From positions 186,001-250,000 of the forward strand of contig JAUPFP010000075.1 of the NCBI GenBank assembly GCA_036925085.1: a DNA stretch of 64,000 nt, in the 5' to 3' direction. The DNA is from Brachycybe producta. Its lineage: Eukaryota; Arthropoda; Diplopoda; Playtdesmida; Andrognathidae. Shown piece by piece: positions 30,901 to 41,319 of this stretch. Made by a program: the position numbers and the translations under genes. The notes below the pieces were generated by a model. It searched no databases and was not told where the DNA came from. It saw only the letters and a program-made list of their open reading frames with translations. Position 1 is the first letter of the stretch; the number at the start of each line of letters is the position of its first letter.

Positions 30901-30915
30901 ACCAACAATACCCAG
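24960..30915. repeat. ~2.44 kb eight-monomer periodicity
   Basis: The variant TTGCTTCACATTGG recurs at about 25475, 27910 and 30350, spacings of 2,435 and 2,440 bp (eight monomers). The GATTCCCAATATTT flank variant recurs in the same register. A unit with AACCTGTATGTTC is also shared at 28822 and 30653 (1,831 bp, six monomers), so more than one exchange is superimposed. Several units have a one-base deletion in box C (GCAGTCCCCATCC). Confidence 0.7.
30912..30915. other. Target-site duplication, left copy
   Basis: CCAG immediately before the 5' LTR, repeated at 41214-41217 immediately after the 3' LTR. Removing the element and one copy restores a normal satellite unit, which confirms the insertion boundaries. 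Confidence 0.85.
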
Positions 30916-31096
30916 TGTAACACCCTGTAAATCGTGATCCCGCCAAAACCATAGCCTGGGGGGTAAACAACTCTCAACCGTCCCTCCCTCCTCTCTGACT
31001 CACCTTTCTGACTCATGCCCAAGTGGCGGATTGATACATAAAGGACCATGGTCACTTGGACCTGGTTACACCTCGCAGGTGTACACAGGTCCAAGG

Positions 31097-31103
31097 TATA
31101 AAA
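31097..31103 (+). promoter_or_regulatory. TATA box of the 5' LTR promoter
   Basis: TATAAAA, followed by GGACCATG, lies about 140 bp before an AATAAA signal, the order expected for U3-R. It is the likely RNA polymerase II promoter of the genomic transcript; initiation is predicted near 31125-31135 (inferred). A weaker TACATAAAGG sequence lies about 60 bp upstream. Confidence 0.65.
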
Positions 31104-31235
31104 GGACCATGTTCCTCTTTGTTCCTCAGTTCTTTCCTTTGCCTGTTTTTGCGATACATTCCAAATCATGGGCCTGAGGATTTCCAGTTAGTATTTTACT
31201 ATTCACCCTTGTATCTGTACTTCTTACAAGGAATG

Positions 31236-31241
31236 AATAAA
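31236..31241 (+). promoter_or_regulatory. Polyadenylation signal AATAAA in the LTR
   Basis: AATAAA in GAATGAATAAAAGTG, followed within 40 bp by GT/T-rich sequence (TGTTGTAA, GTTGTCTC). In the 3' LTR the equivalent is at 40846-40851 and would end the genomic RNA. Confidence 0.6.
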
Positions 31242-31605
31242 AGTGTTGTAACAAGAAGTAGCGTTGTCTCTATGTCTTTATGTTAATAACTTCTCTTCAG
31301 AGGCCGGAGGTTTCATAGGGCAGGAGCTATACGATTCTCAGCAGCTACAACATCTTCTCTAGTCGGAATACCGATGGAGAAGATGTATATCAGCATCAAC
31401 CGGAAGAGAGAGAGATGGCCGCCACTCTCCTGCATCGATTTCACCCCCATGCAGAAGAGTGACTACAATCTATCTCCATCCAGCTCTCTCTACAGCTCGG
31501 ATCTTCTCTGTGCAGGTGTCATACTGCTCAGAGAAGAAACGAAAAGTAGAAAATGTCATCTAAAGGTTGGTAATAAAATATTGGTTGATGTCAAAAGCTC
31601 ACATT

Positions 31606-31621
31606 TGGTGGAGGTGCGGGG
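31606..31621 (+). other. Primer-binding site, tRNA-Ala-like
   Basis: Two bases after the 5' LTR, TGGTGGAGGTGCGGGG is complementary to a tRNA 3' end CCCCGCACCTCCACCA. The GCACCTCCA-CCA acceptor end is that of animal tRNA-Ala genes as I know them. Position and the initial TGG fit minus-strand priming. The assignment to Ala is from general knowledge and was not checked against this genome's tRNAs. Confidence 0.7.
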
Positions 31622-34061
31622 TATAGCTCCATCTGCCTTCTCCGACCTGTAAACAGAAGCCGTCCTTTGTCCTAAGTCTCGTGATTGTGCCTCACGAGGC
31701 TTCGTCCGTCCTTTCTATGTTGGAGCCACGTATGGAGACCCTCGATAGCGTCAAAGTCAACCGCGTGGCGCCTGTCTGTAAAACCGCGTATGGAGACCCT
31801 CGATCACGTCAAAGTCAACCGCGCGGCGTCCTTTGTGTTGGAACCACGTGTGGAGACCCTCGATAGCGTCAAAGTCGACCACGTGGCGCCGTTTGTAAAA
31901 CCGCGTATGGAGGCCCTCGATCACGTCAAAGCCAACCGCGCGGCGTCCTTTGTGTTGGAACCACGTATGGAGGCCCTCGATAGCGTCAAAGCCAACCGCG
32001 TGGCGCCTTTTTTATGTTGGGATCATGTATGGAGGCCCTCGATCACGTCAAAGCCAACCGCATGGTACCGTTTTTGTGGAATCGCGAAAGAGACTTGTGG
32101 CTACACACACCACGTGTCGACCGCGCGATTCTGTGTCCTGTCCTTAGAGACACATGTTAAAGGAACTGCTGCATCGACATCCATCAAGCACGTGGGCAAC
32201 ACCTTGGTAGTAGTTCTTTGACACATGTGTTTCCGTCCGTGTTTTTGTATTTTATGTTTCCATTATCATCACCCACTTTCACCTTTGTTCTTCTTTAATT
32301 TTCAAAGTGAAACTCACACCACGTGGGCAACACTTTAAACAAATTCTTCTTACTCTCCGAGAGGAGTTTGCAGTCTCATTATGAGATGAGCAAACAAATC
32401 TCATCTACTAATCTATTCACCTATTAATAGGCTTTTAAAGGACGTGTGTGTCTTTTAAAATGTCCTATTATCTTCACTCTTCATCTTTAATTTTCAAGCA
32501 AGATTCTCCCTAACTCTATCTCATTGTTAGGGGGCTTACAAGCTTAAAACACACTTTTTCTAGCCACGTGGGACTTTCTTGTCCCCCCTTTTCTTTGTTC
32601 TTTGTTTTTACACTTGTGTTTCCCTTGGGACCCTCTATGTCCCAAGTCATGTTCTTCAGTTTCTTCATCATCATCACCTCAATGCATCATCACATGAACT
32701 TTCTCCATTGGACATCACTGAAGCCCGGCCGCCATCTTGGATCGACCGGACACTCTTCAAAAAGCGCCAACGGAGCGGTTTTTCGCTCCATGTGACTCAT
32801 TGTTGTACCTTCTCTCATCTTTTTGTGTTCTCTTCTCTTTCCTTCTCTTCCAGAGGGTTGCACTCACGCGCCCCCTGGCGGAGTTCCTCTTGTTAGAGAA
32901 AACTTCTCTTTTTCTTTGAATTTTCTCTCTTTTTGTGTCTTTCTCCTGGCCACCATAAAAACGTGCCCCGGAGGAACTTTTCAATCATCAATTTTTGGAC
33001 ATTGCAATAAACTGACCGGAAGTGGCCACCACAGCGCCACCTACGGACTTCTTCATTCTACTCAACATAGTCCCTCACTGGGCACTGACTCTGTCTTTTT
33101 CATCCAGAGCCATCCAGCAGTGAGGACTCAAAATTTCTACGGTCTGAACATTTCTTCTGGTTCACCAAGCATTTAGCTTGTTGAACACACTTCAATTTCT
33201 ACACTGTTTTACTGTTCTTAATAAAACTAAATTAAAACTTTTAATGTGCGGGCACCGCACCTAAGTTTTAAACTTTCTGAGTAAAAACAGCTTTCTTTTC
33301 TTGCTTCTTTGGAGAGTTCAGCCATCTTGAACTTCTCCTTTGTTTGTTCCTTTAAAAAAGTTCAGCCATCTTGAACTTTTTGTTCTTTGTGTGTTCTTTA
33401 CACACACACTCTTCATTCTTGTTTCCAAGTAAAACTAAAAGTGCGGGCACCGCGCTCTAGCTTTACTCTTCGTATTGCTTTCCTCTTCTTCAGGCAACTG
33501 CAATACACTTCATTTCTAATTCACTTTCCACAGTGCAATTTCGATTGGGTGGTGTACCGCGCTCGAGGTTGTATTGTACATCTGCTGTTTCTTTATTGAG
33601 GTTTTTGGAATTCTCGTAACCTCCACGTGGTCGCCAAATACCACGTGTCGAGAGAGATCCTTCCAAAATCTGACGCTCAATAAAGAACTCACGACGCTAC
33701 ACCAGTTGGGAACCAAAACTCGTCACACGCCCAACTGAGAACACGATCAACACGATACAACCATCACCACACTAACGGAGTGAACGGCCACTTCGTTATA
33801 CACGTCACAAGCTTAGGTAATCTATCGTTACTCAGTGTATAAGAGTACGATAGTGTCGGTTGCCGACAAGCACTAAATTGCCAACGCGCAGTGACATCAC
33901 CGACCTACAACTTCACGAACTGAACGAGTCCCATCATACTGGAACCCGAAAGTATAGCTCAGAGTGTACTCGAGAACCCTCGGAGCTGCACACAACGACT
34001 TGGACTTCGCCGGACTCGTTCGTCACCGCATATTCACATTACACAAGCCACTTCATTAATC
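31622..34061 (+). other. Long 5' leader of the retrotransposon
   Basis: This stretch of 2.4 kb lies between the primer site and the Gag start and has no convincing coding frame. It contains the minisatellite at 31732-32088, repeated CACGTG motifs, two copies of TTCAGCCATCTTGAACT (about 33316 and 33361), and two copies of GTGCGGGCACCGC (about 33246 and 33442); the first of the latter is part of a perfect hairpin GTGCGG-GCA-CCGCAC. A leader this long may hold packaging signals or a spliced intron, but no specific signal can be proven here. Confidence 0.5.
31732..32088 (+). repeat. 57-62 bp minisatellite in the leader, six units
   Basis: Six units begin (A/G)TGGAG(A/G)CCCTCGAT at 31732, 31790, 31850, 31907, 31967 and 32029. 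They alternate between a CGATAGCGTC form and a CGATCACGTC form, so the true period is a ~118 bp dimer. They are GC- and CpG-rich (CCGCGTGGCG, CCGCGCGGCG). Spacings of 58 and 62 bp change the reading frame, which argues against a conserved peptide although a 178-codon frame spans the region without an ATG start. Confidence 0.8.
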
Positions 34062-36443
34062 ATGGCTACCTCACACGATAATACGGGGTCCCTGTCTGAT
34101 CACCAGGGTTCGCACGAAGATCTGTTGGAAGTACCCGTGACTACTGATGTGACACCACCGCCGCGGCCGACTGGGGCCGAGTTTGACCACCTGTCACAAC
34201 AAGTGGCTGCACTCCCGACTCGTATGTCTCAGTTCATAGACGACCGATTCACACCGAATCGACCGACTACACCACGGCGGACAACACGCACACACCGACT
34301 TCGCGACGATGACTCGGACGCCTCTTCAGCCCCCTATGTTGGCTACAGAGAGCGTCACGATCGTTACGAAAGACATTACACACCGCACACACGTCATCTA
34401 CCGCGTAACCCTGACTGGCAACAACAAGGGCAGTCAGATGATCCGCGTCACAGAGATGAGCGTGCGGAAATACCGATCACGACACGTGCTGATTCTCCTC
34501 ACTCGCTTGTCCGGGTTGCACGTAGCGGTCGCCGCTCGACACCCCCGGAGCAACAGCCTAGCCAAGGAGCGACACAAGGCACTTCAGTTTACGCGCCACG
34601 TTTTCCACCGCAAGGGGTAGGTCTGATGCCGGCTGGAATGTCAAACGTCCAGGATGGCATCTATCGACCAACCCCCAGAGAACCCTCCGTGGAAGAGTTC
34701 AATAAGAAATACAGCGGTCGCCACCCAGCCGACTCAATCCAAAAATTCAACGGATTGACAGGTTTCCGTCCCTTCCTGGAAGAATTCGAGGAAGTGGCAC
34801 ACCTGTACGGTTGGAAAGACCACCACAAGGAGGAATACATCACGGGGTGTTTCACTGGGGCCGCCCGAACGTGGCTGAGTAAACTGAGGTATGAGCTTCA
34901 GGACATTCCTTGGCCAGCACTGAGAGTACAGATGGTAGATACGTTCGGGAAGCCGAACGAACTAGCCATCTTGGAGAAAAAGTACACAGAGATGCTCCAG
35001 AAGGAAGGTGAGAGTACACAAGCTTTCATCTGGGAGTTTATGATACTCGGCGACCGAGTTTACCCGCAACTTGACGATCAGCTGCTTATAAGCCAGTTGC
35101 GCCGCGCTCTACATCCCACCATACAGAACGCCGCGCATCACGCATCTACGACGTCGTTCAAGGACTTCGCAAACGCCGTCCTCAATATGGAGGTGGTCTT
35201 GCTGTCCTTGGATAAATGGCCGACGGAACCAAAACCCGCAGCTGATTCACAGTCGGGTAAAGGAGTATCGAAGACCGACCAGGAGCCGGCGGCAGCCGCC
35301 AGCCCTAAAGACAAACCACACCGGTCTAGGCATGATAAAAAGCCTAGTCAGACTGCTGCCACCAATTCAAACCGACACTCTGCAGCGGACCCCCAACCAG
35401 AGACCACTCGCACATTCGACAAGAGTAAGTCGACGTGTTATAACTGTGGCAAGTTGGGCCATTTCGTCCGTGAGTGTCGGCAACCAAAGAAGAAGGTCGC
35501 AATCAAGCAGTTTGGGGAGCCGGTTACCGACTATGACATCAAAGGAGAGGTGCCTGAAACGGATATCATCACCGAAGACGGCGTTGAGTTTGCTCTAATA
35601 CGAGTGGCGGGACAAATCCGCCGGATTCCTCTTCCAGCAGCAGACTCAGCCGCCGGAGCACCTACTCCTGATAAACCCGACAACGACAGCTCTGACGACT
35701 CTGAGGACATACCAGTCAAGGTGCTCGACCGGGCTCCTGCACATAAATGGACCCCGGACGAGCTAATCGTTTGGCAGGACACGCTCAACGTCCTTAAACA
35801 ATCCACCAAGGAGGTTGGGTGCCGTGAAAATAAGACAATAGCCGTCATGGCTCCCGGAACCCAATCGCCGACGAAGGGCCACTCCTGCTGCCGAAAACTA
35901 ATGACAACGGTGTATGAGCAGCTGGTAAGCAGCTGCTCACCTCAAGAAGTCGGAGACTACGATGCCAGCGACAAGAACCCACGCATCGCCGTCACGATCA
36001 ATGGAAAGAGTATACGAATGCTCGCAGACACCGGAGCTACGGGCAGCGTTATCACCATTGAACTCGCGCAGGAACACAAGTTCGAAATCGAGCCTGTGTT
36101 AATCCCACCCAACATTCAGGGTGTGGGAGGCCAAAGGATCACCGTGGTGGGACGACTCGCCGCGTCGGTCCAGCTGGGCCCCCACGCTGTGCGAGGGCAC
36201 TTACTAGTGATTACCGGCCGGCACGAAGCCATCTTAGGCCGAGATCTAGGCCGGGCTCTGCACTTAGCTGTGTCCATGACAACAAATAAAGTATACGTGG
36301 AGGACGATCTCTTCGAGTCCACACTCCGACAAAAATGCATCGAAGCACACATCGGATGGGCTCTGGGAGAAACTTCCGGAGAGGCCCCTGGCAAATCTGC
36401 CAGCACCTCTAAGGAAAACCTCGAAACTCCACCCCGTGAGTGA
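34062..36443 (+). CDS. gag-pro: Gag-protease polyprotein of an LTR retrotransposon
   Basis: A 793-residue single frame with a strong start context (A at -3, G at +4) and a TGA stop. Residues 1-200 are low-complexity, rich in R, P, T and H. Residues about 225-360 resemble a Ty3/gypsy-type Gag capsid region, with hydrophobic helices and motifs such as GAARTWL and FIWEFMILGDRV. A CCHC zinc knuckle (C459-x2-C462-x4-H467-x4-C472), followed by basic residues, should bind RNA. A retropepsin-like aspartic protease lies at about 640-745, with DTG at 656-658 and ILGRDLG at 724-730, which would cleave the polyprotein as a dimer. Gag and protease are in one frame without a shift. After the stop only 17 further sense codons follow in frame, and no reverse transcriptase frame exists downstream. 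All key motifs are intact, so particle formation is plausible. Confidence 0.92.
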   Translation: MATSHDNTGSLSDHQGSHEDLLEVPVTTDVTPPPRPTGAEFDHLSQQVAALPTRMSQFIDDRFTPNRPTTPRRTTRTHRLRDDDSDASSAPYVGYRERHDRYERHYTPHTRHLPRNPDWQQQGQSDDPRHRDERAEIPITTRADSPHSLVRVARSGRRSTPPEQQPSQGATQGTSVYAPRFPPQGVGLMPAGMSNVQDGIYRPTPREPSVEEFNKKYSGRHPADSIQKFNGLTGFRPFLEEFEEVAHLYGWKDHHKEEYITGCFTGAARTWLSKLRYELQDIPWPALRVQMVDTFGKPNELAILEKKYTEMLQKEGESTQAFIWEFMILGDRVYPQLDDQLLISQLRRALHPTIQNAAHHASTTSFKDFANAVLNMEVVLLSLDKWPTEPKPAADSQSGKGVSKTDQEPAAAASPKDKPHRSRHDKKPSQTAATNSNRHSAADPQPETTRTFDKSKSTCYNCGKLGHFVRECRQPKKKVAIKQFGEPVTDYDIKGEVPETDIITEDGVEFALIRVAGQIRRIPLPAADSAAGAPTPDKPDNDSSDDSEDIPVKVLDRAPAHKWTPDELIVWQDTLNVLKQSTKEVGCRENKTIAVMAPGTQSPTKGHSCCRKLMTTVYEQLVSSCSPQEVGDYDASDKNPRIAVTINGKSIRMLADTGATGSVITIELAQEHKFEIEPVLIPPNIQGVGGQRITVVGRLAASVQLGPHAVRGHLLVITGRHEAILGRDLGRALHLAVSMTTNKVYVEDDLFESTLRQKCIEAHIGWALGETSGEAPGKSASTSKENLETPPRE

Positions 36444-37945
36444 CGCCGAAAGCAACGGCCACCCACGCTGTCAAGAAACCAAACGCGACGAAAATAAAAC
36501 AATAATTCACCAGTGTTTATTTCATGACTATGGAAATAAACACCAGCAACCATCAAATATCAACAATAGAAGAGCGGGAGGAATTTGAGAATTGTTGTGT
36601 TGAGAAACAACTGAGGACAGTTGTCAAGAGGTGGGGGAGGGGATAAAAGGAACCCCCCAACGAATAAACAACCCCACAGCATCAACAACCCCTCTAAACA
36701 CTCTCAAATAACTCCCAAAACTCTACAAAATTCATACAACTTTAATTTTCGAAACACTTTTAAACTTTTCAAAATGGCCGCCAATATTTACATATTGGCA
36801 ACCATTTCAAACATGCAATAAACTACACCGGAACCACGTGGCCTTCACAAACAACTGTCAACCACGTGGTACACCTGGGAAAAACGCCGAAGGCTAGTCA
36901 AGGACGTTCAGAAGAAAAATCAAGAGCCATAAAAGGGTCAGCAAAAGAAAAACACCGTGCTCCCCTTTATTATGGACGGACGTCATTGACCATGCTGTTG
37001 ACAGTAGAAGGATAGAAACTTCAAAGAGACAATTGCTCTGGGGGCCAGACCGATGCACTGGGACTTCAAAGAAAAAAAAAAAACAACAAAAACTGCTGGC
37101 CATAAACAAATAAAAAAAGGAAGAAAATCAGTTTTGAGGATTTTGTGAGAGCGGACACCTTCAATTAAAAAATAAAATTGAAGAACCTGTCACCCTCTCA
37201 ATTAAGATCGAATTGTGGGACACCAACTCCTGTCCCACTCCCCCCTAAAAATAATAACAAACAGCAAGGTACATTAGTAACCTTGCTGACCTATTCTTTT
37301 CCAAAAAAAAAGGCATTAAGGAAAAAAAAGGGGAGAAAGTTAATGGGCAACTTCACACCTCGGTGTGAAATAAAATAACGGCCCTTCTCCCTCGAGATTC
37401 CTTAGTCCTTTTGTTTATCTAAAAATAATAAACAGGACCGACTCTGATAAGAATTAGATCAACACCTCTCACATCTAATGTCGGTGGGACAACCCCCACC
37501 CCCAATAAATAAAGTCGTGAAGAAACCAATTAGAGTAAGGTGTCTTATTCTAAAAGGAGCCGGCCCTTCTAACTTTTAAAATTAAATAAGAAAAGTGACC
37601 AAACTTGGTCAATTACCACTTGATTTGCTCTCTTCAAAGAAGCACTCGTTTTATTCATCCTGTCATCTCAATTATATTCACCTTCGATTCTTCAAATCTT
37701 CAAGTCCTTTTTGTGCCAAGTTCCAAACTCTAATTTCGGACTTCATCAGTTTTTGTTATTAATCAAAAGCTTGAGTGCCACCTTCAAGCCTTTGAACTCA
37801 CGTGCAGTGCATCAGGCCTTCAGAACTCTTTGGACCTCTTGAAATAATAACAGAGTGATCGGGGACCGATTTCTGTTATTATTTGGAAGTAACCACCAGC
37901 AGCGGGACTTTTGAAAAAGTAAGAACTTTTAAACTCTTAAGAAAT
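36444..37945 (+). other. Non-coding hairpin-rich stretch in place of pol
   Basis: AT-rich 1.5 kb without a credible reading frame, where a normal element would carry reverse transcriptase and integrase. It contains a succession of short inverted repeats, most of them perfect: 36513-36543 (11 bp stem), 36607-36624 (6), 37159-37183 (8), 37215-37238 (7), 37262-37288 (9), 37352-37369 (8, loop of 2), 37405-37438 (11 with bulge), 37453-37479 (7), 37483-37500 (6), 37596-37611 (7, loop of 2), and 37842-37884 (13 plus inner 5). Several AATAAA sequences occur. The region may be structured RNA, relics of small insertions, or sequence captured during pol loss. Confidence 0.7.
37842..37884 (+). other. Two-tier perfect hairpin upstream of the second coding region
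   Basis: The outer stem is a perfect 13 bp (AAATAATAACAGA with its complement) and the inner stem is a perfect 5 bp (ATCGG/CCGAT) closing a 3 nt loop GGA. It ends 62 bp before the ATG at 37946. It could be a structural element that separates or regulates the downstream frame; no known family is recognised. Confidence 0.6.
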
Positions 37946-38683
37946 ATGCCAGGTAGAGGCTCATGGAGAGGAGGCAGAATGATGTCTGCCTCTTCTAGTG
38001 AAGATGAGACGGAGAGTGGAACGGCGGGGACCGCTGAACCCCTCTCTCAATCTACCTGCCAGCTACAGAAGGCGGGCGCCGCCAGTGCTCCAATAACAAG
38101 AAGAGAGTCGCCGAACATAATAGATAGGCGCCGCACCTCCTCCGAACCGGAGAATTTTCACCGGCGTGGGGAGAAGCGCCTAAAAGCAAGCTTCAAGCGA
38201 CCTGCCAATGTCGGGCGCGAAGGGAAGCCTGCTGCTCCAAGCAGCATCGTCCCCTTCGACGTCACGACATCAAAACACTACTGGGAGGAGCGGGAAGACC
38301 GCATCGATATTAATACAATGGCATGGGGGGTTAACCAGGCGTTCCGCGATAGCATCGCGCCTGGTCAACCCATTCCGGGTGGAGCTGAAGCAAGAGGGAA
38401 GCGTGGGGGAGGTGGATCTGTGCCCTCCCCCCTCGAAGACCTCCACTTGGAGCTGCAGAGGGAGGCTGCTCTTCGTCGGGCAGCCAGAGATAAGAAGGAA
38501 GGGGAGGACAATCTGGCGTACCTCCGTGCGGTTTGCGCCCGCCTTGTCGAGCTGGGCTTACCGTGTACGGCGCAACTCCCGAAGGAGGAGCTCCTGCGAA
38601 TCGAGGCCGACTCCAAGAAACCGCCCGAGTTACGTCGTCAGCTACGTCATCATCTCCATCCTCCGACTCGCCAGCAACCCTGA
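37946..38683 (+). CDS. Retrotransposon ORF2a, unknown function
   Basis: A 245-residue frame starting MPGRGSWRGGRMM. The ATG has A at -3; the frame is open a little further upstream but without another ATG. The N-terminus is RGG-like and basic, followed by an acidic Ser/Glu-rich patch (SSSEDETESG), a basic patch (RRRTSSEPENFHRRGEKRLK), and a predicted helical, charge-rich segment near the end (ELQREAALRRAARDKKEGED). There are no cysteine/histidine fingers, membrane segments or enzymatic motifs. Its last 190 nt overlap the next frame, which is in the -1 register, so the two may be expressed as one protein through frameshifting or splicing; no classic slippery heptamer was seen. GC and CpG content resemble gag-pro and differ from the non-coding stretch before it. 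I do not recognise the family. Confidence 0.55.
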   Translation: MPGRGSWRGGRMMSASSSEDETESGTAGTAEPLSQSTCQLQKAGAASAPITRRESPNIIDRRRTSSEPENFHRRGEKRLKASFKRPANVGREGKPAAPSSIVPFDVTTSKHYWEEREDRIDINTMAWGVNQAFRDSIAPGQPIPGGAEARGKRGGGGSVPSPLEDLHLELQREAALRRAARDKKEGEDNLAYLRAVCARLVELGLPCTAQLPKEELLRIEADSKKPPELRRQLRHHLHPPTRQQP

Positions 38684-40122
38684 CAACTGGCCTCTCCACA
38701 TCTCCTTCTCCACCCATAACGCCACCAGAGCCTTTCCAACACTGCTCACCGGTGCCGTCAATCACTCCGCCGCCTCCTCCTCATACACCATTATCGTCAC
38801 CACCAACCTCCCGATGTGCCACGCCTCCACGCAGCGAGGCCGCCACACCAACTCCGACTCCAAAGCTACCTTCCATAGTGGTGGTTCCCCAACCTGTTCG
38901 TGTTCAGGTTCCCACTGGGGCTCGCCCCAAGGAGCCTCAACAGTCCTACAGGGGCCACCACTCTTCTCGAGACTCTCTTCAACGGCCACAACCACGTCGC
39001 TCTTCGCCACGTGGTTCCCATCTTTCGCCCCAACGCCGACCCGACGGAAGAAGTCAGCAGGAACAACGTGGTTCCTCTGGACGCGGCCCTCCGCCGCGTA
39101 ATAACTTCGACCCAAGGGTCAGGCAAGACCTACAGGATCACCGAGTCCAACTGGACCGCGACCATCGCTACGAAACTCGGGGCCCTCCTACTCGGGTCCC
39201 GCATCGCTCTCCTCCTCCGCCACCTCCGGGCCGCCCTTCTGGACAACCTACGCCTACACCTTTGATGCCGCCACCTTCCGCAGAGCGTGCCGCGTTCTTG
39301 AAAAAACAGAAGGCCATCACAAACCTTCTGCAAGACGTCATGCGACAGGGAGGTGACCCCATGGAAGCACTGGGCCGTGCACCAGGAAGTGCCAAGCCAC
39401 TGGAGGCGCTGAGCAGGAAGTCGGCATCGAAGCGACTACGTCAACGGGCCCGCGATATGGCCCGGTCCGCCTTGCGCCATGCCAGGCCTATCACGGGCGC
39501 ATCAGTTTCTTTGGAACCTGCGGCTCCAACACCAGCCCGACCAGCCGCACCGCCCACTGTACCCCATGCCGGGGCTACTCTGGGGCGGTTACCGCTGGAT
39601 CATCCGTTCCGTGCAGCCACCTCCGGCGAGAGGTTGCTCAACAATCGGTGGGTCACTTGGCAGCGCGAAGTGCGCTCTGCCAACACCCTTTACGTAGGAC
39701 ACTTCTCTTTGGAGGAAGGGTTTCCCCGTCTGGACCTCCCTCCCCGGGAGCGATATGTCGTGGGACTCTCCCGCCTAACAAGTGTCCTCATCACCATCGT
39801 CTTCCCAAGAAGACGGATTGTTGAAACCACCAGTTTCGCCGGAGATGCCATCGATGAAGCCACGGAAGCCCTTTTGGGAGCTTTCGTCAACTCCGTCTTT
39901 AGACTGCCAGCTGGACAGACGTTCCGTACCAGTCGTCACTACATTCCGGAACCGGATCCTCGTTACCGAATCGCCGTCTTATGGGACGCCGCTTGGGCTA
40001 CACTGTACAACAAGCGGTCCTCCCGTAAGATTATCGGGGACCGGGACATCTTCAATATCTTCCACCGGGATCTACCTGACGACCAGGGACAATGGCTGTC
40101 TGCCGCATCCAGCTACCGATGA
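38494..40122 (+). CDS. Retrotransposon ORF2b, Pro-rich protein of unknown function
   Basis: The frame is open from 38494 (after a stop at 38491) to a TGA at 40120-40122, about 540 codons. It has no early ATG, so it probably continues ORF2a in the -1 frame or is joined to an upstream exon. Numbering from 38533: residues 50-249 are very rich in Pro, Ser and Arg (runs such as PPPPPP), 250-325 are basic and helical (KSASKRLRQRARDMARSALRHARP), and 370-529 form a more globular segment (WVTWQREVRSANTLYVGHF, RYRIAVLWDAAWATLYNK). No reverse transcriptase, integrase, protease, chromodomain or transmembrane signature is visible. The codon-like composition and length make chance unlikely. It could be a second structural protein or a captured host sequence. 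Function unknown. Confidence 0.55.
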   Translation, partial: EGRGGQSGVPPCGLRPPCRAGLTVYGATPEGGAPANRGRLQETARVTSSATSSSPSSDSPATLTTGLSTSPSPPITPPEPFQHCSPVPSITPPPPPHTPLSSPPTSRCATPPRSEAATPTPTPKLPSIVVVPQPVRVQVPTGARPKEPQQSYRGHHSSRDSLQRPQPRRSSPRGSHLSPQRRPDGRSQQEQRGSSGRGPPPRNNFDPRVRQDLQDHRVQLDRDHRYETRGPPTRVPHRSPPPPPPGRPSGQPTPTPLMPPPSAERAAFLKKQKAITNLLQDVMRQGGDPMEALGRAPGSAKPLEALSRKSASKRLRQRARDMARSALRHARPITGASVSLEPAAPTPARPAAPPTVPHAGATLGRLPLDHPFRAATSGERLLNNRWVTWQREVRSANTLYVGHFSLEEGFPRLDLPPRERYVVGLSRLTSVLITIVFPRRRIVETTSFAGDAIDEATEALLGAFVNSVFRLPAGQTFRTSRHYIPEPDPRYRIAVLWDAAWATLYNKRSSRKIIGDRDIFNIFHRDLPDDQGQWLSAASSYR

Positions 40123-40525
40123 GGCCAGGTCCGGCGGGATTACCCCCCCGTACGGTTCATGGACCCAGGATCCTCCCCACCCTCCGCAGCAGGGATAGCT
40201 GCGCGCCACATGTACTCATGTGGTTGCCACCCATCCGGGTGGCATTATCGAAAAATTTATAAAAAAATAAAATACGTTGCAACTGTTCTTTTCTTTTTAG
40301 ATTCCAATAGCGGCTCGCCACTCAGCGAGCATTAATTATCTTTGTTTTATGTTTTCAGCCTTTTCCAATTTTTAAGGGCGCTGACACTTTGGTGCCAGTG
40401 CCTTTCCATAACCACCTCTGTACACGGTAAGTCCTCAGCCACCCATGTCTCCCCGCTGCGTAACTTGAAAACCTTCCACCCTTGGCTGGAGTACGAGGAC
40501 GTACTCCAAGCAAAGTTGGAGGGTA
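40123..40525 (+). other. 3' untranslated region before the 3' LTR, with hairpins
   Basis: The stretch contains three perfect hairpins in series, 40204-40221 (CCACATG stem), 40223-40242 (8 bp TGCCACCC stem) and 40313-40330 (GCTCGC stem), plus an imperfect one at 40377-40402. Two splice-acceptor-like tracts end at 40300 (TTTTCTTTTTAG) and 40358 (GTTTTCAG), and a donor-like GTAAGT is at 40427-40432; their use is unproven. Confidence 0.55.
40511..40525 (+). other. Polypurine-like tract
   Basis: CAAAGTTGGAGGGTA immediately precedes the 3' LTR, the position of the plus-strand primer. It is interrupted by TT, so it is a weak tract; position is the main evidence. Confidence 0.45.
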
Positions 40526-41213
40526 TGTAACACCCTGTAAATCGTGATCCCGCCAAAACCATAGCCTGGGGGGTAAACAACTCTCAACCGTCCCTCCCTC
40601 CTCTCTGACTCACCTTTCTGACTCATGCCCAAGTGGCGGATTGATACATAAAGGACCATGGTCACTTGGACCTGGTTACACCTCGCAGGTGTACACAGGT
40701 CCAAGGTATAAAAGGACCATGTTCCTCTTTGTTCCTCAGTTCTTTCCTTTGCCTGTTTTTGCGATACATTCCAAATCATGGGCCTGAGGATTTCCAGTTA
40801 GTATTTTACTATTCACCCTTGTATCTGTACTTCTTACAAGGAATGAATAAAAGTGTTGTAACAAGAAGTAGCGTTGTCTCTATGTCTTTATGTTAATAAC
40901 TTCTCTTCAGAGGCCGGAGGTTTCATAGGGCAGGAGCTATACGATTCTCAGCAGCTACAACATCTTCTCTAGTCGGAATACCGATGGAGAAGATGTATAT
41001 CAGCATCAACCGGAAGAGAGAGAGATGGCCGCCACTCTCCTGCATCGATTTCACCCCCATGCAGAAGAGTGACTACAATCTATCTCCATCCAGCTCTCTC
41101 TACAGCTCGGATCTTCTCTGTGCAGGTGTCATACTGCTCAGAGAAGAAACGAAAAGTAGAAAATGTCATCTAAAGGTTGGTAATAAAATATTGGTTGATG
41201 TCAAAAGCTCACA
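40526..41213 (+). repeat. 3' LTR
   Basis: 688 bp, matching the 5' LTR line by line with no difference seen. TATA box at 40707-40713, AATAAA at 40846-40851. It is followed by CCAG, which matches the four bases before the 5' LTR (30912-30915), and then by the interrupted 5S-like unit. Confidence 0.93.
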
Positions 41214-41319
41214 CCAGTATTCCCAGGCAGTCCCCATCCAAGTACTGACTGGGCCCAATGTTGCTTAACTTTGGTGATCGGATGAGAACCAGTGTGTTCA
41301 ACATGATATGGCCGTTGAC
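41214..41319 (-). pseudogene. 5S-like unit split by the retrotransposon (5' portion)
   Basis: The 5' ~100 nt of a 5S-like unit lie here; its last 17 nt are at 30899-30915 on the other side of the element. The insertion point is inside the 3' strand of helix V (near nt 103-106). The box C region also lacks one base (GCAGTCCCC), a variant shared with neighbours at 26060, 26358 and 29100. Confidence 0.8.

Follow-up and report, generated by a model that had tools for sequence, protein, structure and literature searches.

A young Gag-Pro element in a 5S rRNA gene array of Brachycybe producta is probably the Gag half of a two-component Ty3/Gypsy-type retrotransposon

The window analyzed in this work is a whole stretch of 64,000 nucleotides from Brachycybe producta (assembly GCA_036925085.1, contig JAUPFP010000075.1, positions 186,001 to 250,000), which holds an array of 5S rRNA genes on the minus strand with a period of 305 bp. 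The sole interruption of this array, at 30916-41213, is a complete long terminal repeat (LTR) element with TG...CA ends, a primer binding site (PBS) adjoining the 5' LTR and a short target-site duplication (TSD). Its insertion point lies inside a 5S rRNA gene, after 16 nt of a 119-nt match (plus-strand view), and the gene is restored when the flanks of the element are joined. The element is very young, and its two LTRs (30916-31603 and 40526-41213), judged identical by eye in the initial annotation, indeed have 0 mismatches in 688 positions. It encodes Gag and a protease, and we propose that it is probably one half of a retrotransposon whose Gag and Pol are split between two elements. Its features, with positions in the window, are as follows:

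30912..30915, no strand: left TSD, CCAG
30916..31603, plus strand: 5' LTR, 688 bp, TGTAAC...CTCACA, 0 mismatches to the 3' LTR
31606..31621, plus strand: PBS TGGTGGAGGTGCGGGG, which makes up the junction pattern with the LTR end and which we take to be the complement of a tRNA-Ala-like 3' end
31604..33867, plus strand: leader, common to the Pol-bearing partner, 92-95% nucleotide identity in five copies
31718..32065, plus strand: tandem 60/117-bp repeats within the leader
33924..36443, plus strand: Gag-Pro open frame, first ATG at 34062, 793 aa
34839..35114, plus strand: Gag capsid-type domain (Retrotrans_gag), Pfam 6e-8, ratio of nonsynonymous to synonymous polymorphism (pN/pS) 0.09
35433..35483, plus strand: CCHC zinc knuckle, zf-CCHC 6e-7
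35970..36254, plus strand: retroviral-type aspartyl protease, Pfam 6e-13
36444..37858, plus strand: non-coding stretch at the place expected for pol
36605..36640, plus strand: remnant of the pol 3' end, containing the hairpin ACAACT-GAGGAC-AGTTGT (36607-36624)
37859..40122, plus strand: region of open reading frames (ORFs) 2 and 3, one frame of 729-754 aa in 9 of 12 copies of this type, frameshifted in the window copy
39580..40119, plus strand: ORF3 C-terminal domain, ~36% identical to the ORF after pol in the partner
40290..40525, plus strand: 3' end common to the partner (237 bp, 89-90% identical), which includes a purine-rich tract ahead of the LTR
40487..40508, plus strand: second hairpin, GAGGAC loop, stem of 8, present in the partner too
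40526..41213, plus strand: 3' LTR
41214..41217, no strand: right TSD, CCAG

Frames of at least 80 aa were listed on both strands; Pfam analysis of five bore out that the Gag and protease motifs are intact; the capsid-type domain also has a weak match to Arc (E 0.04). The reported lack of reverse transcriptase (RT) and integrase (IN) was upheld as well, neither being found by Pfam in the five ORFs nor by tblastn at E<=1 with RT and RNaseH-IN queries from this family. The space described as non-coding is so over the 1.4 kb after Gag-Pro (36444-37858), except for a short remnant of the pol 3' end (local score 49 versus a best of 36 among 300 shuffles) seen in 12 of 12 copies with the window layout. 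The additional proteins proposed are present too, although their two ORFs (37859-38683 and 38494-40122) are one frame in most copies (9 of 12) and appear as two in the window through a frameshift. No Pfam family was found in the ORF2/ORF3 region or in the ORF3 of the partner, and Gag-Pro and ORF2/3 had no match at E<=0.001 among the candidates scored from a large protein set. An envelope glycoprotein was considered for ORF3 and rejected, there being no membrane-spanning segment (highest 19-residue hydropathy of 1.3, or 1.2 in the partner) and no Pfam family, and this sets the element apart from endogenous retroviruses with env. The AlphaFold model of the ORF3 domain has a mean predicted local distance difference test score of 52.9. 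Intact Gag-Pro also separates the element from large retrotransposon derivatives (LARD) and terminal-repeat retrotransposons in miniature (TRIM), which have no coding capacity.

In the assembly searched (295 Mb, 442 contigs) there are two types of element with these ends, which we call G (Gag-bearing, with the layout of the window) and P (Pol-bearing, sharing LTRs, primer site, leader and 3' end with G). The pattern formed by the LTR end and the PBS was found at 778 sites (<=2 mismatches), some of them in sister families whose LTR is different (3 of the 30 loci drawn from contig C1), and at 0 sites for the reversed control pattern. Markers for the Gag capsid (CA) and for RT hit 331 and 138 sites, respectively. 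The LTR search gave 2218 candidates, of which 40 matches were scored, all close to 100% identical, and 16 LTR-paired copies, picked from the best LTR matches and read at the 3' side, comprised 11 with the G layout and 5 with the P layout and its pol. Exact 4-bp TSDs flank 11 of 13 elements, both G and P. With 331 CA-marker sites and 11 of 16 paired copies sharing the window layout, a lone deletion derivative was rejected; an assembly artefact is unlikely, each copy examined having its own flanks. Older copies with G-type interiors are also present (LTRs ~72-94% identical where measured), and downstream in five of them we found the G-type non-coding stretch in four, no match in one, and RT in none. 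The 480-aa N-terminal and CA part of Gag is open in all 10 copies scored, and the protease region of G has a stop in 1 of 10. The possibility raised at the outset, that the window copy is simply a deletion derivative, holds insofar as the lineage, judging from its remnant, lost pol by deletion, yet it was amplified with conserved Gag, and a full-length Gag-Pol copy with these LTRs was not found in the part of the genome examined.

The distance from the CA marker to a shared hairpin (see below) divides the 42 sites listed on contigs C1-C3 into 26 with 1533-1597 bp and 15 with 907-1020 bp, the hairpin being missing in one. Both short-distance copies that were read (L039 and L043) have lost the protease, and this class, G2 (15 of 42 by marker distance, two read), seems to have lost it too, as would be expected if P supplies the enzymes; P would then be the only source of them for this class. 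Three LTR-PBS junctions also occur inside 110 bp at G000:C3:11088588-11088697, a small tandem repeat.

The initial annotation suggested searching for a partner that combines this LTR with pol, and such a partner does exist. Two P pairs have LTRs with 0 and 1 mismatches in 688 to the window LTR and 0 within each pair; identity is 92-95% over the 2.26-kb leader in five P copies, and 89-90% over the final 237 bp. The P frame consists of an N-terminal part of ~327 aa followed by protease (6e-15), RVT_1 (2e-32), RNase H, H2C2 and rve. Taken together, the pair fits Ty3/Gypsy, with the Pro-RT-RNaseH-IN order, RT before IN, in P and absent from the window element. This partner lacks a Gag core, however, and hence is not a usual autonomous helper. 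Retrotrans_gag together with CCHC was found in the G element only; a Pfam scan of two P 5' pieces detected neither at E<=1, nor was any Gag family detected at E<=10 in the N-terminal 327 aa of one copy. The sole blastn match between five P 5' pieces and Gag-Pro was the protease, and in a comparison with a Gag profile the similarity starts only just before the protease. G and P are 50% identical over 166 aa in the protease region and 36% in the ORF3 domain. Should the P N-terminal region be an unrecognized, very different Gag, P would be autonomous and G a variant with another Gag; this N-terminus is conserved (pN/pS 0.27) and faintly like that of the G Gag (24% identity across 119 aa, at E 6e-5 if composition is not corrected for and without a match if it is), but the failure of both Pfam and profile comparison to reveal CA or CCHC in P makes this quite improbable.

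The gag-less N-terminus is a regular feature of P. Among the 100 RT sites listed, out of 138, it lies upstream in 88, at exactly 2172 bp from RT in 57, 2163 bp in 8 and 2160 bp in 6 (multiples of three apart), with 86 within 2080-2177 bp and outliers at 1685 and 3010 bp. Eleven of the other 12 listed sites (251 bases each) have it as well, which brings the count to 99 of 100, and the remaining one has a P-type leader end ~2.05 kb from RT, leaving no room for a Gag core.

For the initial 1.4 kb of the leader, a tree was built. Its 30 rows are the window, all 16 paired copies and, from the 30 C1 loci, 13 that are of the young type and of known class, a duplicate having been omitted. G and P leaders are fully intermixed in this tree. 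With 24 rows of G and 6 of P, placing the P rows takes 6 changes, a number not reduced relative to shuffled labels; a minimum of 4 changes between G and P is required by supported branches (the bootstrap being not fully settled), and the closest neighbor of the window copy is of the P type. Intermixed leaders next to shared proteins of only 36-50% identity are expected from template switching between co-packaged RNAs. They also bear on whether the identical ends are due to recent common descent without exchange, G and P having split recently by two deletions. Both types look to be descended from a Gag-Pro-Pol-ORF3 ancestor, and the pol remnant is kept in all 12 G copies, but the proteins (50% for the protease, 36% for the ORF3 domain) are far less alike than the ends (89-100%), the leaders are mixed and G-type interiors already occur in the older copies, so that a recent split is hardly credible.

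Both types also have two hairpins in common whose loop is GAGGAC; the first lies in the pol remnant, the second ahead of the 3' LTR, and each was present in the three P 3' pieces scanned. Among 200 dinucleotide-shuffled elements, 2 had one or more such hairpins and none had two, for a motif that was chosen after being seen. The 19-mer of the first hairpin has 600 sites in the genome (<=1 mismatch), and on C1-C3 it adjoins 41 of the 42 CA sites listed and 16 of the 17 RT sites listed. A role of these hairpins in packaging is only a suggestion.

The G Gag and, in P, the protease, RT-integrase and N-terminus are under purifying selection. Values of pN/pS in G were 0.09 for CA, 0.19 for the 480-aa Gag part, 0.33 for the protease, 0.36 for ORF2/3, 0.37 for the ORF2 part and 0.17 for the ORF3 C-terminal domain, and in P, besides the N-terminus (0.27), 0.06 for the protease, 0.20 for RT-IN and 0.40 for ORF3, versus 0.57 for a non-coding control whose frame is arbitrary and whose value is itself <1. 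Fisher tests against this control, on raw variant counts and uncorrected, gave p values of 0.0021 (G CA), 0.0004 (G Gag part), 6e-5 (P protease), 0.0012 (P RT-IN) and 0.021 (P N-terminus), and of ~0.02 or less for the remaining significant parts; the G protease (0.055), ORF2 (0.12) and P ORF3 (0.21) were not clearly below it. Two G copies (L069 and L070) with pieces too short were left out of the Gag counts, and L039 and L043, whose protease is gone, out of the protease counts.

Gag and Pol exclude each other in the copies examined. Junctions were classified for 100 listed of the 778 (perfect matches on contigs C1-C3, with 100 sites listed per marker): 34 had one of the listed CA sites, 14 one of the listed RT sites, 0 both and 52 neither. 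Twenty of these 52 were probed and proved to be 12 G-type, 1 P-type, 2 of the sister family, 1 with ORF2 only and 4 without any match. One might suppose that a full Gag-Pro-Pol helper (rare, diverged or missing from the assembly) carries G as a semi-autonomous passenger, P being another defective derivative of this helper. Plants offer precedents (Wilma/WHAM/Sabrina, Cereba/Quinta), full Gag-Pol relatives exist in other animals, the diverged families of this genome were sampled thinly, and four of the 20 junctions probed matched nothing. Yet the 100 junctions include no copy with CA and RT together, the 100 listed RT sites have a gag-less N-terminus in all cases but one, itself without room for a Gag core, and selection on the G Gag is not expected if a helper supplied all Gag. 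We consider such a passenger unlikely.

With two layouts, their mutual exclusion, shared ends, mixed leaders, selection and the same 4-bp footprint, we read the window element as the Gag half (G) of a two-component (split Gag/Pol) Ty3/Gypsy-type retrotransposon, at a probability of roughly 0.7. From the leader tree, the selection and the comparison of LTRs and TSDs we infer that G and P may be co-packaged and complement each other. In such a system G would make Gag, mostly with protease, and P would make protease, reverse transcriptase, RNase H and integrase; Gag made by G would build the particles, both RNAs would be packaged via common leader signals, and both types would be copied and integrated by the P enzymes. 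Template switching in mixed particles would keep the ends alike and the interiors distinct, and an excess of Gag over Pol would come from copy number (331 versus 138 marker sites) and not from a recoding signal. The conserved N-terminal part of P would be the likeliest candidate for docking Pol to Gag. It also seems to us somewhat probable, though with less assurance than the split itself, that this is an obligate bipartite animal LTR retrotransposon in which neither half moves alone, both are under selection and template switching keeps the ends the same.

Several points weigh against the two-component reading. The sites listed were 100 of 138 for RT and 100 of 331 for CA, and one RT site lies 3010 bp from its P N-terminus. 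Of the 5 P copies, a single one keeps both the N-terminal and the RT-IN pieces open; interruptions affect the long ORF3 frame in 1 of 5 P copies and the ORF2/3 frame in 3 of 12 G copies, one of these three being that of the window. The nature of the selection control and the three parts not clearly below it count here as well, as do the pol relatives with Gag in other animals and a sister family that uses the same primer site and has its own Gag.

This sister family has the same 25-bp LTR-end/PBS junction and different LTRs (L017, L020 and L021 on contig C1). Both copies sampled encode CA, CCHC and protease, followed by the C-terminal stretch of an integrase that leaves no space for RT; this stretch directly adjoins in one copy and comes after an unread gap of ~600 bp in the other. 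This layout implies that G-type layouts recur or are old, and the Gag/Pol split may be older than both families, given the integrase tail in two of two Gag-Pro copies. Downstream of a sister-family junction (L076, C1:12431773-12432673) there is a 251-aa frame that by eye resembles a packaging ATPase of Polinton/virus type.

Elsewhere in the window (1-30915 and 41214-64000), the 5S units of ~305 bp on the minus strand show a higher-order duplication, with 5S matches of equal score recurring every ~7.9-8.6 kb between 44 and 64 kb. A preference for 5S rDNA as target was not supported, as, of the loci compared, none but the window's own matched the array. The host, described in the initial annotation as a probable animal, appears from its homeobox sites to be a bilaterian: 9 of 11 IWFQNRRM sites lie on one strand within 0.72 Mb (C27:1552418-2271782), probably a Hox cluster, and two sites that were read look like what we take to be DBX and GBX types. 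Tandem 18S sites (L113, the C57:641120 region and others) are mostly ~30 kb apart; the 18S is divergent and is followed by a stretch with partial 18S-like duplicates (by eye).

Each half alone is already known in plants. According to the available portions of the papers concerned, the abundant wheat Ty3/Gypsy elements RLG_Sabrina_SA and RLG_WHAM resemble G in having Gag and protease without RT or integrase, and co-evolve with a pol-bearing partner; they differ in belonging to a plant and in that the named partner, RLG_Wilma, has Gag, RT and integrase, and no reciprocal gag-less partner was found in the portion available (PMC9744471). A partner with complete Gag-Pol of that kind was not found here, the only pol-bearing partner (100 of 138 RT sites) being without a Gag core. 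RLG_Quinta of wheat centromeres is, like G, a Gag element with an extra unknown domain and a pol-bearing partner, RLG_Cereba, with which it shares LTR termini, primer site and purine tract, and their recombination is ascribed to template switching; Cereba, unlike P, encodes a full polyprotein, and only parts of their LTRs are conserved, whereas G and P have the whole LTR and the 2.26-kb leader in common (PMC11302176, accessible part). Athila of Arabidopsis includes families without pol whose Gag/Env frames are under purifying selection; its families recombine with one another and their cooperation has been proposed, but other families carry pol, one recombinant has gag, pol and env, and the accessible text mentions no gag-less pol partner (PMC2410132). 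P, with pol present and Gag not found, is of the type of BARE2 (PMC3735527) and Tos17 (PMC3977881), which cannot make Gag but differ in belonging to the Copia superfamily. BARE2 RNA is packaged in particles of BARE1, which makes Gag and Pol, and BARE2 is described as its parasite and not as a reciprocal partner (PMC3735527).

In the literature searched, mostly without subscription papers and in part only as excerpts, we found no description of a reciprocal Gag/Pol pair or of a segmented LTR retroelement. Segmented genomes are well known among RNA viruses. If the two-component reading is true, this would be a natural retroelement with its structural and enzymatic genes parted into two mutually dependent mobile units, which could be likened to a segmented virus genome inside chromosomes. 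The stability of cooperation between transposons would then become testable, and so would how Pol is packaged without a Gag-Pol fusion and whether copy number sets the Gag:Pol ratio.

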